This document shows positions 18,094-57,938 of a stretch of DNA of 58,170 nucleotides, piece after piece; position 1 is the stretch's first letter; each line of letters begins with the position of its first letter. A model generated the notes under the pieces. It searched no databases. It had not been told where the DNA came from and was given only the letters and a program-made list of their open reading frames with translations. The stretch comes from Chloroflexota bacterium (GTDB taxonomy: Bacteria; Chloroflexota; UBA11872; VXOZ01): assembly GCA_028874195.1 (NCBI GenBank), contig JAPPLM010000048.1:1-58170 (forward strand), read 5' to 3'. The position numbers were made by a program, and so were the translations under genes.

Positions 18094-18119
18094 GGTAGCG
18101 CAGGTTTGTAACCTGCGCC
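18094..18119 (+). repeat. Repeat family B copy (GCAGGTTTGTAACCTGC)
   Basis: Palindromic GCAGGTTTGTAACCTGC core preceded by GGTAGC. Near-identical copies are at 34210-34235 and 54606-54630 and a related one at 43223-43248. Confidence 0.75.
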
Positions 18120-34209: not shown

Positions 34210-34235
34210 GGTAGCGCAGGTTTGCAACCTGCGCC
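34210..34235 (+). repeat. Repeat family B copy
   Basis: Same as the copy at 18094-18119, differing by one base in the centre (TTTGCAACC here, TTTGTAACC there). Confidence 0.8.
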
Positions 34236-47380: not shown

Positions 47381-48684
47381 GCATTGTGATGTTTGGCGGT
47401 GTGTTTGGCGCAGCCGTGTTGCTCTGGATTCTGTGGCCGCTCATCGGGCGCAGCGGTGTAACAGAGTCGCAGCGGCCGGAGGGCGCACCCGATGACATCG
47501 CGGAACGCACCCTGCTGCTCTATCAAGAGCTCGAGGAAATCGACTTAGAGCACGAACAGGGCGATCTCACTGCGGCAGAGTACGCCTCTTTGCGCGAGGC
47601 ACAAAAGCAGCGTGTTATCTCGCTCCTTCAGGCCAGGCAGCGTGAAGCGGGCGCTTTGAGTGCAGCCAGGGAACGCGGTGACGCAGACGAGTTGAGCGAC
47701 GCCATTGAGGCCGAAGTCCTGCGGATTCGCGCCCGGCGTCGCGGACAACTGGACGAATCGGCTGGGCAAAGCGCCGCCGCAGAAGCCCCGGCATCTGCCA
47801 TGGCGCGGGGCGTTCACTGGCTGTGGATTGGCGTACCCGCTCTCCTTGTTCTCATCGCTTTCGGCGGCATTTTTCAACTCTACCGTGCCTCCTCCCGCAC
47901 CCTCACGGAACAGACGCCGGTAGCGCAAATCAACGCGGCAGCGCTCGTAGGGTTTGCCTTTGTCGCTCCCGATCAGGTGCTCCTGGCAAACGCGAACGGC
48001 TTGTTGGAAAGCCGTGACGGAGGTTGGGCGTGGACGCAAAGTTCACTAGATGCGGTACCTGTAGCAATGGCAGTGTCGCCGGCCGGAGCAGGCGTTGCAT
48101 ACGTGTTTTCAGAAGACGGCGTGCACGTATCAGCCGACGCCGGCCGCACGTGGCAGGCTGTCACTGGCACGTTGCCGGGCGCTGAGATTCTGGCAGCGGC
48201 GGTCAATCCATACGTGCCCACGGAAGTCTATGCCAGTTTCGCCGACGCCGGTTTGCAGCGCTCGCGCGACGGAGGAAGGACCTGGGAAGCGGTCGCGACA
48301 CCGGACAACGAAGCAATCGTGGCAATCTATGTGGGCGGTATTCCACCGCTCCTCTTCATCGCCGTAGAATCGGGGAGAGTGCAGGCGAGCAGCGACGAGG
48401 GTGAGACGTGGGCCGCTGCCAGCGGCGCGGTTACCATGGCTTTGCGAGGGCCGGTGCGCGCCCTCGCAGGAGTGCCTGACGGCAGCGTGCTCTACGCGGC
48501 GGCGCATACCGGGTTGTTCATGTCGACGGCTGACGGACAGACCTGGGTGGATCTGCCCCTGCGCAAGCCGCTTGTCGCCGTAGCCGCTGACCCGGCGAAC
48601 GACCGCACCGTGCTCGCCGTAACCGAGACGGGAGAAGTCTTCCGCAGCACGGATGGCGGCATCGCGTGGAGAAACGAGCAGTGA
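47377..48684 (+). CDS. CcmI-like protein fused to BNR/Ycf48-like propeller
   Basis: A 435-residue protein of two parts. Residues 1-168 have the CcmI-type layout: a membrane helix at about 6-23, the helical ELEEIDLEHEQGDLTAAEY segment with LREAQKQRV, then a second membrane helix at 148-168. The rest (about 180-435) is a beta-propeller with BNR/sortilin-type repeats of the form DGGxTW (DGGWAWTQSS, DAGRTWQAVTG, DGGRTWEAVATP, DEGETWAAASG, DGQTWVDL, DGGIAWRN). The usual CcmI C-terminal TPR domain is replaced by the propeller. CcmI recruits apocytochrome c; the propeller may do the same or bind another partner. Translationally coupled with ccmH. Confidence 0.85.
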   Translation: MSIVMFGGVFGAAVLLWILWPLIGRSGVTESQRPEGAPDDIAERTLLLYQELEEIDLEHEQGDLTAAEYASLREAQKQRVISLLQARQREAGALSAARERGDADELSDAIEAEVLRIRARRRGQLDESAGQSAAAEAPASAMARGVHWLWIGVPALLVLIAFGGIFQLYRASSRTLTEQTPVAQINAAALVGFAFVAPDQVLLANANGLLESRDGGWAWTQSSLDAVPVAMAVSPAGAGVAYVFSEDGVHVSADAGRTWQAVTGTLPGAEILAAAVNPYVPTEVYASFADAGLQRSRDGGRTWEAVATPDNEAIVAIYVGGIPPLLFIAVESGRVQASSDEGETWAAASGAVTMALRGPVRALAGVPDGSVLYAAAHTGLFMSTADGQTWVDLPLRKPLVAVAADPANDRTVLAVTETGEVFRSTDGGIAWRNEQ

Positions 48685-48811
48685 TATCTCCTGTGCATGC
48701 AACGCCTGATAGGGGTACGGATGGTTTGCCGCCGTCGCTAGAGCAGGAAACCACCCCATTGGGCCTTGGGTCAATCCCGCCAAAACGGAAGCCTAATACG
48801 GCATCTCATCC

Positions 48812-48837
48812 GTCATTCCCGCGAAAGCGGGAATCCA
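48812..48837. repeat. Repeat family E copy
   Basis: GTCATTCCCGCGAAAGCGGG followed by AATCCA. A second identical copy starts at 48938, and a decayed one is visible near 48895. Confidence 0.8.
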
Positions 48838-48937
48838 TCCTGGCACCTGGTCAATCATCGCCGTCTAATTGGGAAACGACGACAGCGCATGACCGGTCAT
48901 ACCCGCGATGTCCAGAATCCAAAGCGGAACAGGATTC

Positions 48938-48963
48938 GTCATTCCCGCGAAAGCGGGAATCCA
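48938..48963. repeat. Repeat family E copy
   Basis: Same sequence as the copy at 48812-48837. The two copies lie between ccmI-like and the unknown membrane protein and are read through as open frame. Confidence 0.8.
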
Positions 48964-48986
48964 TCTTTTCTTTCACTGCAAGAAGC

Positions 48987-50255
48987 TTGGCTATTCAGAT
49001 TCCTAAGGCTTACCTCAACTCCCTGTCGCCAAGACACATTGCCCTTTCGTTGTGCTTCGGCATTCTTCTGACTCTCCTCACTACCGCTAGTCTTGCGGCG
49101 GCAGACGGCGTCATCACCGGCACCGTCGTCAACGGCACCGAGGGCGGCAGCGTGCCGGCGGACGTAGCCGTCACCCTCTATTTCCTGCGCGACGGGAACA
49201 TCGTGGAGCAGCGCACGCAGGTCACCGACGCTGCGGGCGCATACCGATTTGTCGAGGTTCCCACGGATGCGGAATTAGGCTTCGTGGTGGTTGCCGCCTA
49301 TGTGGAAGTGCCGTACAACACGCCGGAGTTGCGCTTTGCGGAGAGCGCTGTGATTGAAGCGCCGCCGCTCATGGTGTATGAAGCGAGCCAGGACGTGAGT
49401 GTGGTGCGGGTCATCACTGACGTGCTGATCATTGCGCCGGGTGAGGAGCAGAGCGGCATGCTCGCCGTCATCGAGGTTGTGCGGCTCGCCAACCGGAGCG
49501 ACCGCACGTTTCTCGCCACCGGCGTCGCAGGCGGTGGTGCGATGATGGATAGAGTATTGCGCTTTGCGCTGCCCGCCGGTGCCCAGGACCTCACCATGCT
49601 CAGCGGGATGAATGCGGAGAACGTCGTGCAGATAGATCGAGGCTTTGGCGTCTTCATGCCGCTGCTGCCGGGCGAGCGTGAAGTAGCCTTTGGCTACCAG
49701 GTGCCCTATTCCGGCAGTTCCCTGGATTTGATCAAACGCACGGTCTACCCTACGGACAACTTCGCTATCCTTGCGCTGGAAGAACACAACCTACGGTTGC
49801 AATCGGATCAACTGAAAGTGCAAGCCACGCCGATTGGCGACCGACGTTACGTCGTCGGCTCCACGGACTCGCTGGCGGCGCGGGCGGAAGTGCGGGTAAG
49901 GGTCGAAGGCTTGCCGGCGCCATCTTTGCGGGTGCGCCTGGAGCGGCTGTTTGAACGCGTGCGCGGCGCCCAGGCAAGCGTCTTTGTTCTGCTTGCCGTG
50001 GTGCTAATCTTGCCCCTACTCTATGCCGCCTACCGTATGCGCGGCGGTCTGCGCCGAAAAGCTGTGGCTGCGCCTGCGCTCGCTCCCGAAGCGCCGGATG
50101 CCAAAGAAGACTTGCTCCTCGAAATGGCTCAACTCGATGATGACTATGCGGCAGGAAGCTTGGTTGAAGACGACTACCGGCGCTTACGCGCGGAGAAGAA
50201 ACAACGTTTGATGGGACTCCATCGAGCGCCGGAGGAAGATCCCGACAATGGCTGA
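48987..50255 (+). CDS. Carboxypeptidase-regulatory-like membrane protein in ccm cluster
   Basis: A 422-residue protein with a signal segment (residues 18-38), a domain starting GVITGTVVNGTEGGSVP similar to carboxypeptidase-regulatory/transthyretin-like repeats, a beta-rich middle and a transmembrane helix at 331-349. The C-terminal cytoplasmic tail holds LDDDYAAGSLVEDDYRRLR, like a segment in the CcmI-like gene upstream. Start is uncertain: open frame extends to 48666 but that part is translation of repeats, while TTG 48987 gives a plausible signal peptide. The role is unknown; the position between ccmI-like and ccmA suggests a part in cytochrome c maturation. It overlaps ccmA by eight bases. 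Confidence 0.7.
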   Translation: MAIQIPKAYLNSLSPRHIALSLCFGILLTLLTTASLAAADGVITGTVVNGTEGGSVPADVAVTLYFLRDGNIVEQRTQVTDAAGAYRFVEVPTDAELGFVVVAAYVEVPYNTPELRFAESAVIEAPPLMVYEASQDVSVVRVITDVLIIAPGEEQSGMLAVIEVVRLANRSDRTFLATGVAGGGAMMDRVLRFALPAGAQDLTMLSGMNAENVVQIDRGFGVFMPLLPGEREVAFGYQVPYSGSSLDLIKRTVYPTDNFAILALEEHNLRLQSDQLKVQATPIGDRRYVVGSTDSLAARAEVRVRVEGLPAPSLRVRLERLFERVRGAQASVFVLLAVVLILPLLYAAYRMRGGLRRKAVAAPALAPEAPDAKEDLLLEMAQLDDDYAAGSLVEDDYRRLRAEKKQRLMGLHRAPEEDPDNG

Positions 50256-52639: not shown

Positions 52640-52819
52640 ATGGACACAATACAGAATTTCGACTTCCTCTTTGCCGCCTACACCATCTTGTGGGTAATAG
52701 TCTTCGGGTACTTCTTCTTCCTCACCCGGCAGCTTGCCGATCTGCGACGCGAGGTCAACGCTTTGCGCGAGGAACGTGGGAATGACGACGGCGCGTCTCC
52801 AACAGGCCCGAACTCGTAG
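52640..52819 (+). CDS. ccmD: CcmD-like small membrane protein
   Basis: A 59-residue frame: an N-terminal MDTIQNFDFLFAAYTILW with a hydrophobic helix (about residues 10-30), then charged LTRQLADLRREVNALREER and a polar tail. Size, topology (one membrane helix plus basic cytosolic helix) and position after ccmC match CcmD, which keeps CcmE release from CcmABC going. It has GAAAGGGAA upstream of the ATG. It is shorter than the cut-off of many gene finders. Confidence 0.8.
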   Translation: MDTIQNFDFLFAAYTILWVIVFGYFFFLTRQLADLRREVNALREERGNDDGASPTGPNS

Positions 52820-52902
52820 TGGCGTTACCGCGCAGAATGCGCCGAATGGATCTTCACTTGCGGAGTATTCTCGGCTTCGATTGACCGGCGATCAATTGGC
52901 AG

Positions 52903-52929
52903 TTGCCAGGGTGCATGTTATCCTATAAT
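52903..52929 (+). promoter_or_regulatory. Possible promoter of the ATP-grasp-like gene
   Basis: TATAAT (52924-52929) is a perfect -10 box; TTGCCA (52903-52908) at a 15-base spacing is a weak -35. The start of transcription would be near 52936, just before the ATG at 52972. Confidence 0.4.
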
Positions 52930-52971
52930 TACTGAAGTAATGGAGCACTCCGAGGATCCGAGCAGGTTTCA

Positions 52972-54543
52972 ATGACGCAAGACGGGCGATGTACTACGGT
53001 TGAGACCGGAAGCCAAACGGCTGAAGCCGGCAGCCCAACTGCTGAAGCAGCATGCCAGACTACAGAGGCGGAGAGCCAAGAGGATATCCCTCCTGCACGC
53101 TCTGCCGCTCTGAACACGGTTGCTGAAACTGATGCCCGCGCGCGCAGCCTGGCCCTCAATGACAGCGTTCCCGCCAGCGGTCTTTTTGGCGAAGCGGACC
53201 GGCCGCTCGTGGAAGGGTCGCGCGCCTCGTGGCGCATCGCGCCGGAACCGTTCCTCATTACTCCCCAAAGCCACCAGCGGCTGCAGCAATTGGGAGACCA
53301 ATTGCTCGCCTTCTACGGCGCGGCGAACCGCCTCTACAAGCGCAGCGCGCGGGGCACAATCCCCGCGTTTTTCCACGAGTATCTCGATATCGGCAAGAGC
53401 GAGACCGTGGTTGACTATGGGAGAATGAACCGCTTTCGCCACGACCTGCCCGGCGTGATCCGGCCGGACCTCCTTCTAACCGCGGACGGCGTAAAGGCCG
53501 CCGAGCTTGATTCCATCCCCGGCGGCATCGGCTTGACCGGCAGCATGCAGCAGCATTACAGCAATCTGGGCTTCACGATGGTCGGCGGAGCGAACGGCAT
53601 GGTGGAAGGCTTTGCCGCCATGATACAAGGGCGTGCCGCCAACGACGACCCGCAGCTTGCCATTGCCGTTTCTGATGAATCTAATGACTATCGTCCCGAA
53701 ATGCAGTGGGTGTCCGATCAGTTATGCCGGCTGGGTATGAGCAGCGCGTGCGCCAAGCCTGAGGAGATCGAATTGCACGGCGGCAACCTCATGCTTCAAG
53801 ACCGGAAGATAGATACGCTTTATCGCTTTCTTGAACTCTTCGACCTGAAGAACATCCCGAACTACGACGTTCTTCTCTACGCCGCCCGGAAACAACTCGT
53901 CACCATGACGCCGCCGGTAAAGGCATATCTGGAGGAAAAACTGCTCTTTGCGCTTTTCCATCATCCCGTGTTAGCCGAATTCTGGGCGCAGGAGATGGGG
54001 GCGAAGACGGTTGCCGCCTTGAAGCAAGTAGTACCGGAAACCTGGATCCTGGACCCGCGCCCCTTGCCGCCGCAAGCGGTCGTGCCGGGACTGGAAATCG
54101 CCAAGCGGCCGGTGACGAATTGGGAGCAACTCAAGGGACTGGGTCAAGCCGACCGGCGGCTTGTCATAAAGCCTTCCGGCTTCGCTCCCACCGCCTGGGG
54201 CAGCCGCGGCGTGACCATCGGGCACGACCGGCCCGAGTCGGAGTGGGATGACGCCGTGCAGACTGCCTTGGAAGCCTTTGAGACTACACCTCACGTCTTG
54301 CAAAAATTCCATCACGGCAACCGGTACGGCACGCGCTACTATGACTTTGCACAAGATTCAGTGCGGAAGATGCACGGCCGGGTGCGCCTGAGTCCGTACT
54401 ACTTTGTAGCGGATGACAAGACGACGCTCGCAGGCATTCTGGTAACAATCGTGCCTGCGGACAAGAAGCTCATTCATGGTATGGTGGACGCCGTAATGAT
54501 GCCCGCGGCCATTAGCGACAGCGGCGTAGACCTTGACCTATGA
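52972..54543 (+). CDS. ATP-grasp-like protein next to lysine 2,3-aminomutase
   Basis: A 523-residue protein I do not recognise fully. The N-terminal 60 residues are low complexity with TAEAGSPTAEAACQTTEAES-type repeats. Then comes a region with a possible pre-ATP-grasp fold (GVIRPDLLLTADGVKAAELD), which resembles the substrate end of ATP-grasp ligases, and later segments such as RLVIKPSGFAPTAWGSRGVT resembling a glycine-rich nucleotide loop. It ends with LSPYYFVADDKTTLAGILVT. No transmembrane segment. The gene directly precedes kamA by 123 bases, so it may use beta-lysine or a related amino acid in an amide bond or act as a ligase. A promoter candidate is at 52903. Confidence 0.55.
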   Translation: MTQDGRCTTVETGSQTAEAGSPTAEAACQTTEAESQEDIPPARSAALNTVAETDARARSLALNDSVPASGLFGEADRPLVEGSRASWRIAPEPFLITPQSHQRLQQLGDQLLAFYGAANRLYKRSARGTIPAFFHEYLDIGKSETVVDYGRMNRFRHDLPGVIRPDLLLTADGVKAAELDSIPGGIGLTGSMQQHYSNLGFTMVGGANGMVEGFAAMIQGRAANDDPQLAIAVSDESNDYRPEMQWVSDQLCRLGMSSACAKPEEIELHGGNLMLQDRKIDTLYRFLELFDLKNIPNYDVLLYAARKQLVTMTPPVKAYLEEKLLFALFHHPVLAEFWAQEMGAKTVAALKQVVPETWILDPRPLPPQAVVPGLEIAKRPVTNWEQLKGLGQADRRLVIKPSGFAPTAWGSRGVTIGHDRPESEWDDAVQTALEAFETTPHVLQKFHHGNRYGTRYYDFAQDSVRKMHGRVRLSPYYFVADDKTTLAGILVTIVPADKKLIHGMVDAVMMPAAISDSGVDLDL

Positions 54544-54605
54544 TGCGCCGGTAGCGTGGGTTCGCACGGCTCGCGCGCGTAACCGGACTGAGCCTTTGAA
54601 ACGCG

Positions 54606-54630
54606 GGTAGCGTAGGTTTGCAACCTGCGC
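54606..54630 (+). repeat. Repeat family B copy
   Basis: GGTAGCGTAGGTTTGCAACC followed by TGCGC; a diverged copy precedes at 54550. These lie in the 123-base gap before kamA. Confidence 0.75.
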
Positions 54631-54666
54631 GCAGCCTACGGGGGATTCGGAGAAGAAGGAGCCGCA

Positions 54667-55845
54667 ATGGCAATTTCGCAAACCCAGGTGAAAAGAGAAA
54701 AAGAAGAGTGGCAGGAACTGCTCGCGGCCGGCATCAACCGGCCGGAGAAGCTCGTCGATGAACTTGGCGCGCGGCTCGGCTTGGATGACGAGACGGCGGC
54801 CAGCCTGCACAAGAACTTCCCGGTACGCATTAACCCCTATTACCTCGGCCTGATCGAAGAGGTAAACGACCCCATCTGGCGTCAGGCCATTCCCGACGAG
54901 ATGGAACTCGACCACAGCGATACCATGACCACCATGGACCCGCTGGCGGAGGATATGGACTCGCCCGTACCCTATCTGACGCACCGCTACCCCGACCGCG
55001 TGCTCATGGTGGTGCAATTGCAGTGCGCCATGTACTGCCGCTTCTGCACCCGGCGCCGCGAAGTCGGTAGCCGCAATGCCGTGAAGAAGGAAGACTGGGA
55101 TCGCCAGATCGAATACATTGCCACGCATCCTGAAGTGCGCGACGTCATCATCTCGGGCGGCGATCCCTTCATGCTGCTGGACCACCAGATCGACTACATT
55201 CTCAAGGGACTGCGGGCGATCCCGCACATGGAAATCATCCGCCTCGACTCGCGGATGCCGGTCACGTTACCCCAAAGAGTGACAGACAATCTCTGCAAGA
55301 TCATCCAACGCTACCATCCGGTCTATCTGAACACGCACTTCAACCACCCACGCGAGATTACGCCGGAATCCAGCCGCGCGTGCGAACTCATGAACGACCA
55401 TGGCGTTCCGGTCGGCAACCAGAGCGTATTGCTGCGGGGCGTGAATGACGACCCGGAGGTGATGAAGGAGCTTGTCCAGGGCCTCTTGAAGATCCGCGTT
55501 AAGCCCTATTACCTCTACCAAGCCGACCTGGTCACCGGCACCAGCCATTTCCGTACGGCTGTGGAGAAGGGTCTGGAAATCATTAGCGCGATCCAAGGCC
55601 ACACCAGCGGCATGGCCGTGCCGCACTTCGTGATTGACGCGCCGCAAGGCGGCGGCAAGATTCCCGTGACGCCGGACTTCATTCAAGAAATCACCGACGA
55701 CGAGATCGTGCTCAAGAACTACGAGGGCAAGGTCTACCGCTACCCCATTGACTCAGAAGTGCCGAACGCGCGGGAGGCCACGATGTCCCAAGCCCAAACG
55801 AACGGCAAGGGCAACGGTAAGGTCTCCGCTGCCGACACCAATTGA
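54667..55845 (+). CDS. kamA: Lysine 2,3-aminomutase (radical SAM, PLP)
   Basis: A 392-residue radical SAM enzyme that converts L-lysine to beta-lysine. The iron-sulfur motif CAMYCRFC (Cys120, Cys124, Cys127) is followed by TRRREVG. The PLP lysine is Lys331 in QGGGKIP. The two acidic residues that bind the lysine side chain in the clostridial enzyme are retained as Asp287 (YQADLV) and Asp324 (VIDAPQ); glutamate aminomutases have other residues there, so lysine is the likely substrate. The ATG at 54667 has GAAGGAGCCGC before it. The C-terminal 20 residues are polar and low complexity. Confidence 0.93.
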   Translation: MAISQTQVKREKEEWQELLAAGINRPEKLVDELGARLGLDDETAASLHKNFPVRINPYYLGLIEEVNDPIWRQAIPDEMELDHSDTMTTMDPLAEDMDSPVPYLTHRYPDRVLMVVQLQCAMYCRFCTRRREVGSRNAVKKEDWDRQIEYIATHPEVRDVIISGGDPFMLLDHQIDYILKGLRAIPHMEIIRLDSRMPVTLPQRVTDNLCKIIQRYHPVYLNTHFNHPREITPESSRACELMNDHGVPVGNQSVLLRGVNDDPEVMKELVQGLLKIRVKPYYLYQADLVTGTSHFRTAVEKGLEIISAIQGHTSGMAVPHFVIDAPQGGGKIPVTPDFIQEITDDEIVLKNYEGKVYRYPIDSEVPNAREATMSQAQTNGKGNGKVSAADTN

Positions 55846-55912: not shown

Positions 55913-56959
55913 GTGAACGTCCCGCTACGCATCGCTGCCGTCGGACTGGAACACGACGAGATCTATCGCGTGCTTGACCGGGTGCGCCGCCACGATGCGG
56001 CGGAATTGGTGGCAATTGCCGAACGGAGCGGACGTCTCCGCATGGCCGCCGCCGGTCGGTACCGCGTTCCGGTCTTTCCCCGCCTTTCCCCACTCCTTGA
56101 GGACACTGCCGTAGATGCCGTGCTCGTAGCCACGGCGAACGGCAATAAAGCAGCAGCTATAGAGGAATCCTTGCGGGCGGGCAAGCACGTGATCGCCCAT
56201 GCGCCGCTGGCGGTCTCCCTCGAGCAGTTAGACACCGTGGCGCAAGCCCAACCAGCTTCCGGCGCGGCGTTGCTTTCACTACATCCGCTGCGCTTCACGC
56301 CGGCTTACGTACGACTGCGAGAGTTGATTGCCGCAGGGCAGCTCGGCGCCATCAGCCAGATCGTGATAATCACTTCGCAGAAGGTGGCGGCTACGCCACG
56401 TACTCAGGCCTTCTATGATTCACCCACACACGGCGGGATACTGACCAGTCTTGCCGTTCACGACATAGACGTGTTGCGGTGGCTTGGCGGCGACCTAACC
56501 GTGACCGGGGCCTTGACCCAGTGCTATGGCGTCACAGAGCACGCGGAATTCGAGGACGCGGGTATTGTGCGCTGCACGTTAGCTCATGGCGGTGAGGGCG
56601 TGGTCGCGTGCAACTGGCTTGCCCCGGAGGCAGGCGAGTCATTCCAGGAACTTACTGTCGTTGGCACCGAGGGCACGGCGTGGATCAGCGGCGGCAAGTT
56701 ACGCGCAATGTCGGCGGACCGGGGTTCCTTCCCGTCTAACGAGATAGAGAACCACGTAAACCTTGTCACTCAGACTGAACCCGGTGGCGCCGTTCCTGTT
56801 GAAGCAACGGGTCAGGCCGAACGGGATGTTGTCACCTCCATGCTCGATGCTGCGCTCGCCGCTCTTCGTTACGCCGATTCGAGAGAGGCAGCCACCGCAG
56901 ACGCGCTCCAAACGGCGCGTGCCGCCGTGCAGGCGCAAGCCTCAGCTTGGCAGAGTTAG
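55913..56959 (+). CDS. Gfo/Idh/MocA-like protein lacking standard motifs
   Basis: A 348-residue protein of the Gfo/Idh/MocA fold (AGKHVIAHAPLAVSLEQLD and HDIDVLRWLGG are typical). However, the dinucleotide-binding GxGxxG is replaced by GLEHDE (11-16) and the EKP motif by HAP (96-98). It may use another cofactor or be a non-catalytic relative. GTG start at 55913 after GAGAAG. The kinase gene at 57078 is on the same strand after a repeat. Confidence 0.82.
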   Translation: MNVPLRIAAVGLEHDEIYRVLDRVRRHDAAELVAIAERSGRLRMAAAGRYRVPVFPRLSPLLEDTAVDAVLVATANGNKAAAIEESLRAGKHVIAHAPLAVSLEQLDTVAQAQPASGAALLSLHPLRFTPAYVRLRELIAAGQLGAISQIVIITSQKVAATPRTQAFYDSPTHGGILTSLAVHDIDVLRWLGGDLTVTGALTQCYGVTEHAEFEDAGIVRCTLAHGGEGVVACNWLAPEAGESFQELTVVGTEGTAWISGGKLRAMSADRGSFPSNEIENHVNLVTQTEPGGAVPVEATGQAERDVVTSMLDAALAALRYADSREAATADALQTARAAVQAQASAWQS

Positions 56960-57029: not shown

Positions 57030-57057
57030 GTAGGGGCACGACATGTCGTGCCCCTAC
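57030..57057. repeat. Repeat family D copy (GTAGGGGCACG palindrome)
   Basis: A perfect 28-base dyad with GTAGGGGCACG ends around ACATGT. It matches the copy at 21904-21931 except for the centre, and is immediately upstream of the start of the kinase gene. Confidence 0.85.
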
Positions 57058-57077
57058 CGGGCGAGGAGACGGTCGTC

Positions 57078-57938
57078 ATGGATGGGACCGAGCAAGACAC
57101 GCCGTCGTTTCTCACTATCGGCCATGCCGCGCGGGACATTACGCCGGACGGCTGGCGGTGGGGCGGCACAGTGACCTATGCGGCACTGCTTGCGCGCGCG
57201 TGGGGCGTGCGCACCGCCGTGGTTACGTCATTGGCGCAGGAGGACGTGCCGGGCTATCAAGCGCTTCTCGGCGATGACGTGCTCCTCCACGCCATCCCGT
57301 CTCCCGCGACGACGACGATGGAGAACATCTACACGGATGAGGGGCGGCAGCAGCTCGTTCATGCCAAGGCCGCGCGGATCGAGCCGCGCCACGTTCCGGC
57401 GGCGTGGCGCGACGCCCCTGTCGTGCTCGTGGGGCCGATCCTGCATGACGTCTCGACGAAATTTAGCGGATTCTTTCCCAAGAAGTCGCTGGTCGGCATG
57501 ACGATTCAAGGCCGCCTGCGCAGCCACCGCGGCGGTCGCGTATACAGGCAACTTTGGCACCGCGCAGAGCATGAGTTTCCGGCGTACGATGCGCTCTTCT
57601 TTTCTATCGAAGACGTGCGGTACAATATGCCGCTTGCTGAATTCTACGCGGCACTCGCTCCCATGGCAGTGATGACGCGAGGCAGCGATGGCGCAACGCG
57701 CATCCACGATGGTGAGTTCTATGAACTTGACGCCCTACCCGCACAGCCCGTCGACCTCACCGGGGCGGGCGACATTTTTGCTGCCGCGTTCATGCTGTGC
57801 TATGCGGAATGGGGCGATCAAGTCGTCGCGCACTATTACGCCAATGCCGCCGCCGCGTGCAGCATCGAACACGTCGGCGTCAGCGGTATTCCAACGTTCC
57901 AGCAGGCTAAGGCACGTCTACGTCTCGCTCTGGGCTAG
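57078..57938 (+). CDS. PfkB-family carbohydrate/nucleoside kinase
   Basis: A 286-residue ribokinase-like kinase. GGTVTYAALLARAWG (29-43) is the substrate-binding region, and DLTGAGDIFAAAF (226-238) is the phosphate-binding/catalytic-base motif with GAGD at 229-232. Substrate unknown: a sugar, nucleoside or vitamin-type alcohol. Start ATG 57078 follows GGCGAGGAGACGG; a GTG at 57048 is inside the family D repeat. Confidence 0.88.
   Translation: MDGTEQDTPSFLTIGHAARDITPDGWRWGGTVTYAALLARAWGVRTAVVTSLAQEDVPGYQALLGDDVLLHAIPSPATTTMENIYTDEGRQQLVHAKAARIEPRHVPAAWRDAPVVLVGPILHDVSTKFSGFFPKKSLVGMTIQGRLRSHRGGRVYRQLWHRAEHEFPAYDALFFSIEDVRYNMPLAEFYAALAPMAVMTRGSDGATRIHDGEFYELDALPAQPVDLTGAGDIFAAAFMLCYAEWGDQVVAHYYANAAAACSIEHVGVSGIPTFQQAKARLRLALG

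Follow-up and report, generated by a model that had tools for sequence, protein, structure and literature searches.

In the EpmAB and AblAB systems a KamA-family enzyme supplies beta-lysine, and the kamA partner is EpmA or AblB. A KamA-family enzyme is proposed to supply beta-lysine in the same way at the locus described here, but its partner is a predicted ATP-grasp ligase. The acceptors known for the fold of that ligase are spermidine (Gss, YgiC and YjfC), glycine, beta-alanine and amino acids. Its closest described counterparts by structure are E. coli YgiC and YjfC, annotated as peptide-spermidine ligases (7uk6, 7uk8, 7uka); the synthetase domain of E. coli Gss (2io7 and others); the eukaryotic-type glutathione and homoglutathione synthetases (8fbz, 3kal); and Cp1B, the ligase of the fungal E-64 pathway (9cjn). 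Homoglutathione synthetase has beta-alanine, a beta-amino acid, as its acceptor (PMC12568646). In Cp1B, residues R139, D141, E163 and N165 surround bound adenosine, and alanine substitution at these positions abolishes or strongly reduces activity (PMC12568646). No description of a ligase-kamA pair was found in the open-access papers searched.

Gene organization

The window, that is, the whole stretch of 58,170 nucleotides that was analysed, belongs to a 3.5 Mb Chloroflexota genome (G000). Both ORFs of the pair lie on the plus strand where the earlier note had placed them: an unannotated gene for a predicted ATP-grasp amide ligase of 523 aa at 52972-54543 and, after a gap of 123 bp, a gene for a KamA-family radical-SAM/PLP aminomutase of 392 aa at 54667-55845. 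Genes for cytochrome c maturation, CcmB- and CcmC-like by Pfam, precede the ligase gene; an ORF of about 60 aa that follows the ccmC-like gene, at 52640-52820, looks CcmD-like by eye. The ORF at 48666-50255 carries SFPRKRES twice near its start (48666-48960), which resembles a REP-type repeat translated as protein, and the true start of this ORF is probably further downstream.

A consensus scan picked out a candidate plus-strand promoter at 52896-52945, TTGGCA-N17-TATCCT with TG before the -10, followed by the block TATAAWTAMTGAAGTAATGG. Promoter and block are near-completely conserved in six genomes of the genus, and the intergenic region around them has diverged. The gap 5' of kamA is variable and holds only an RBS-like stretch. 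Because this gap is variable and no conserved promoter was found in it among the relatives compared, a single transcript fits the arrangement. A 24-bp element, GTAGCGTAGGTTTGCAACCTGCGC, occurs three times in the window with at most 2 mismatches (54607-54630, 34211-34234 and 18095-18118), a triple occurrence seen in 0 of 100 shuffles. The copy at 54607-54630 falls between the ligase gene and kamA and is absent in two relatives; the element looks like a small dispersed repeat.

On the 3' side of the pair, Pfam identifies a Gfo/Idh/MocA oxidoreductase gene (55913-56959, plus strand) and, further on, a PfkB-family kinase gene (57048-57938, plus strand). The oxidoreductase gene follows kamA in those relatives of the genus whose locus reaches that far, and a PfkB kinase gene is beside the pair in another locus of the same genus (L031). 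In the linked loci of other groups Gfo/Idh is not directly 3' of the pair, and both genes were rejected as pathway partners because beyond the genus neither comes after the pair. About ten Nitrospirota loci have a glutaredoxin- or GST-N-like gene of ~84 aa between the ligase gene and kamA (e.g., L097:9505-9756), and many of these loci have a divergent LPG_synthase_C (PF09924) gene upstream. The glutaredoxin-like gene, a dCTP deaminase gene and the divergent LPG_synthase_C gene of Nitrospirota were dismissed as partners, being limited to that lineage. The search for a conserved third gene at the ligase loci found none, and the neighbours differ between phyla. An antiphage role was likewise rejected: all that PADLOC gave was a viperin match, at chance level, to the radical-SAM core.

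Predicted fold and active site of the ligase

Pfam and NCBIfam, searched up to E 1, gave no match for the 523-aa protein, nor did the PDB sequences give a meaningful one; phmmer and hmmsearch against the PDB returned nothing significant, and a profile search gave no match to Gss. An AlphaFold2 model built from a 69-sequence alignment had a pLDDT of 88.6 and a pTM of 0.88, with residues 1-50 predicted to be disordered. The best Foldseek hit of the model was human glutathione synthetase (E = 9.7e-18). In VIA comparisons the glutathione/glutathionylspermidine synthetase group scored Z 22-27 over 320-410 residues, and model residues ~50-518 align with that group over the full-length three-domain fold. 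YjfC gave Z 26.6 (358 residues aligned, 3.7 Å), YgiC 26.2, Cp1B 24.9 and Gss about 24.5-24.8; RimK, Ddl and LysX reached only 8-9 over ~220 residues. The earlier note had seen ATP-grasp-like stretches in this protein and had proposed comparing a predicted structure with ATP-grasp folds; the model is indeed that of an ATP-grasp ligase. As modelled, the protein is a member of the glutathione synthetase / glutathionylspermidine synthetase / YgiC-YjfC branch. It was structure prediction alone that settled this assignment; the sequence searches gave nothing significant.

Weak family resemblances appear among the 69 homologues. GSP_synth (PF03738) weakly matches 6 of them (best E 0.0044), short of its gathering threshold, and the window protein itself has no match up to E 1. 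CP_ATPgrasp_2 weakly matches 10 of the 69 (best E 0.02), and CP_ATPgrasp_1 is also seen among members. An hhalign comparison of the family with Gss, YgiC and YjfC gave E 8e-4 at a probability of only 25%.

The predicted catalytic signature, R164-x-D166 ... E178-x-D180, is encoded at 53461-53511 (plus strand), and its four residues are invariant in the 69 homologues. Their spacing is that of E. coli Gss R316-D318-E330-N332, residues that are themselves invariant in Gss, YgiC and YjfC. The R-x-D ... E-x-N tetrad is thus present with one consistent departure: the fourth residue is Asp throughout the ligase family, so that the superfamily's E-x-N becomes E-x-D, and as read from the alignment this constant Asp sets the family apart. 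A putative nucleotide-binding segment, IKPSG...GSRGV, is encoded at 54166-54213 (plus strand), with K400, S402, G403 and G413 invariant in the 69 homologues. In the hhalign alignment (probability 25%) it faces the KPI-x-x-R-x-G of Gss, YgiC and YjfC, with K400 opposite Gss K533; K323 was set opposite Gss K498 by eye only. K498 and K533 are the ATP-binding lysines of Gss.

Set beside its counterparts, the ligase shares with YgiC and YjfC the full-length fold and the R-x-D ... E-x-[ND] pattern, but identity is ~13-14%, the motif is E-x-D and not E-x-N, the linker before the KP motif is longer, and the partner gene is kamA where theirs are ygiB/yjfM. With Gss it has in common the fold and the signature spacing, but it has no amidase domain and falls far under the Pfam family thresholds. 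The eukaryotic-type synthetases gave the best Foldseek E-values and match over the full length, at 10-14% identity. Cp1B is similar in fold and catalytic residues, but it is a fungal natural-product enzyme working on epoxysuccinate, and its partner genes are different. Cp1B, too, could not be related by sequence to the ATP-grasp enzymes characterised before (PMC12568646).

The aminomutase

KamA scores 331 bits against TIGR00238, above the cut-off of 199.2. Against TIGR03820 (AblA) it scores 468.1 bits, below the equivalog cut-off of 525.4, and so was not filed as AblA. Lysine 2,3-aminomutase (KamA/AblA, 2a5h) aligns with residues 30-360 (E 5e-118), and the active-site residues are kept: the cluster cysteines C120/C124/C127 (CxxxCxxC), R129 (Arg134 of 2a5h), the PLP lysine K331, and D287 and D324, which correspond to the lysine-binding Asp293 and Asp330 and bear out the earlier note's statement that both aspartates are present. 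KamA has Asp in place of Cys268 of the 2a5h zinc site, and a short C-terminal tail; it has therefore probably lost the structural zinc site. R129, D287, D324, K331 and the CxxxCxxC motif are kept at the covered positions of every linked KamA examined, one row (L076) being partial.

Linked KamAs, except those of Bacillota, read QADL around Asp293. In the KamAs sampled from ligase-free Chloroflexota and Nitrospirota genomes this motif is QCD, QID, QLD, HGD or HPD in the stretches covered. In the KamA tree most QADL proteins form one clade (support 96/93), with the QADL proteins of families f3 and f4 just outside it; the linked KamAs of Bacillota form another (100/97), and unlinked KamAs fall between and outside these two. 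Linked KamAs therefore span at least two supported clades. The active site of KamA is of the lysine type, and beta-lysine is very likely its product.

Distribution and linkage of the pair

A scan of GTDB genomes with the ligase alone gave at least 542 confirmed relatives; the labels among those listed include Nitrospirota, Bacillota, Latescibacterota, Gemmatimonadota, Poribacteria, Eremiobacterota and Chloroflexota. No plasmid of the collection searched carries the ligase. Linkage was counted on the contigs of the best 80 of these at least 542 relatives: kamA lies within 1 kb of the ligase gene in 50 of the 80, always on the same strand and downstream in all but one locus (L101). The loci of the best 80 without an adjoining kamA are mostly those of Latescibacterota, Gemmatimonadota, Poribacteria, Eremiobacterota and family f3 of Chloroflexota, or contig ends. 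The survey of kamA neighbours that the earlier note had called for thus found the pair conserved well beyond genus and phylum.

Among 118 Nitrospirota genomes the ligase was found in 59, KamA in 62 and both in 58. KamA accompanies the ligase in 58 of 59 genomes and is present in 4 of the 59 without it (Fisher p 2.6e-27, uncorrected for phylogeny). In 55 of the 58 the two genes are neighbours, ordered as in the window and separated by 24-798 bp; the three others have a KamA of a different type, encoded elsewhere in the genome. Among the carriers of the pair is Ca. Nitrospira defluvii, which oxidises nitrite. There are Bacillota with the pair as well, and five families of the Chloroflexota class to which the window belongs have it. 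In the Chloroflexota sample the strong ligase matches came from 37 genomes of that class, and KamA was found in 36 of them; the assembly of the one genome with no KamA match (G039) is fragmented. The kamA of family f3 of this class lies ~10-30 kb from the ligase gene (mostly 10-16 kb) in the opposite orientation, or on another contig. Near the f3 kamA are genes whose protein starts, read by eye, resemble a SUF iron-sulphur assembly set (L147:1523-8023).

Fourteen ligase genomes, groups without linkage included, were searched with the family models, and all 14 contain a KamA-family protein over the cut-off, as do 8 of 14 control genomes, the family being common in bacteria. Both aspartates are kept in the KamAs read from these ligase genomes. 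The KamA of the Latescibacterota, Gemmatimonadota and Eremiobacterota genomes is a longer protein of a distinct type, and its gene is not linked to that of the ligase. The distances between ligases correlate with those between KamAs (r = 0.78 for 44 pairs; permutation maximum 0.27), which is as expected for co-inheritance and by itself no proof of interaction.

Discussion

We somewhat favor the view that the two genes are a functional unit, in which beta-lysine from KamA becomes the amine acceptor of the ligase and is bound through an amide to a carboxylate partner. KamA would move the alpha-amino group of L-lysine to C3, giving beta-lysine. The ligase would use ATP to convert a carboxylate into an acyl-phosphate, and attack by an amine would yield the amide, ADP and phosphate; given the modelled fold, that an amide is formed is very likely. 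Beta-lysine, a diamine and a beta-amino acid, would be that amine; it is preferred as acceptor because it resembles both spermidine, a polyamine, and beta-alanine, a beta-amino acid, among the acceptors of the fold. The ligase's fold and signature, the lysine-type residues of KamA and the linkage across phyla support this proposal. Against it stand the departure from E-x-N, the distant or unlinked KamA of family f3, of Latescibacterota, Gemmatimonadota and Eremiobacterota and of three Nitrospirota genomes, and the failure of the loci to show a third conserved gene that would point to the carboxylate partner. We infer that beta-lysine is what KamA makes in these organisms, that the ligase is active, that beta-lysine is its substrate (this from linkage) and at which end beta-lysine would be joined.

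The roles could be reversed, with the ligase activating the carboxylate of beta-lysine and joining it to another amine, such as a protein lysine, a polyamine, an aminolipid or a sugar. EpmA is a precedent for activating that carboxylate, and the superfamily varies in its electrophile, Cp1B not requiring an alpha-amino acid in that role (PMC12568646). In the closest bacterial relatives, however, the small amine is the acceptor, as Gss, YgiC and YjfC are annotated, and we think beta-lysine unlikely to be the electrophile. A different explanation, which we judge quite improbable, is that the genes share no pathway and that co-transcription or inheritance has kept them side by side; nearly every genome of the class has both, and in f3 they have drifted apart and both persist. 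Against this, order and strand are the same in Chloroflexota, Nitrospirota and Bacillota, with at least two KamA lineages involved, and Nitrospirota nearly always have both genes or neither. Linkage could also arise if both enzymes act separately on lysine metabolism.

The known outlets for beta-lysine fit poorly and are disfavoured. The earlier note had seen no EpmA or acetyltransferase gene near kamA, and the absence extends genome-wide: no AblB and no EpmA over the cut-off was found in the window's genome. AblB (TIGR03827) was found in none of the 14 ligase genomes, five control genomes being positive, and 12 of the 14, Chloroflexota, Nitrospirota and Bacillota included, have no EpmA (TIGR00462) above the cut-off. 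Only one Latescibacterota and one Gemmatimonadota genome, both with the ligase, exceed it; the other long TIGR00462 matches are of ~500 aa and resemble ordinary lysyl-tRNA synthetases. Lysine 5,6-aminomutase (PF09043), the marker sought for lysine fermentation, gave no match in the 14 genomes, but the control genomes gave none either. EF-P is present in all genomes searched. Its tip carries Arg (KMGRGG/KIGRGG) in all four own-class genomes read, of three families (G000, G001, G016 and G021, with EF-P genes L120, L122, L117 and L121), so that EF-P of this class has no lysine for beta-lysylation; neither the EpmA-plus-lysine-tip combination of EpmAB nor the AblB of AblAB is found in G000. Among the ligase genomes read from Nitrospirota and Bacillota the tip carries Lys (KPGKG) and EpmA is below the cut-off, which would suit a ligase that replaces EpmA and puts beta-lysine on EF-P. 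We give this replacement very little chance: the own-class tip is Arg although the pair is kept, so beta-lysylation of EF-P cannot be the shared function, and the Latescibacterota and Gemmatimonadota genomes hold an EpmA-like protein together with the ligase. Only slightly less remote is the idea that the pair leads to a compatible solute of the N-epsilon-acetyl-beta-lysine type through an unrecognised acetyltransferase, with a separate role for the ligase. The lysine-type active site of KamA agrees with it, as does a GNAT gene near the ligase gene in Latescibacterota loci, but that gene is not general, those loci have no kamA, AblB is missing from all 14 ligase genomes searched, and kamA has the ligase as its conserved partner.

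To return to beta-lysine as the acceptor of the ligase, the product is plausibly a beta-lysine conjugate other than acetyl-beta-lysine or modified EF-P. More tentatively, at a little under even chances, KamA and a new family of ATP-grasp ligases may make a widespread new beta-lysine conjugate that belongs to core metabolism in Nitrospirota, the Chloroflexota class and other phyla, either as a polyamine-like or thiol-like metabolite or as a modification of a cell component. Few fates of beta-lysine are known, and the pair, if this is true, would add a new one; a large unnamed family of at least 542 members, so far without an entry in Pfam or NCBIfam, would gain a function as well.
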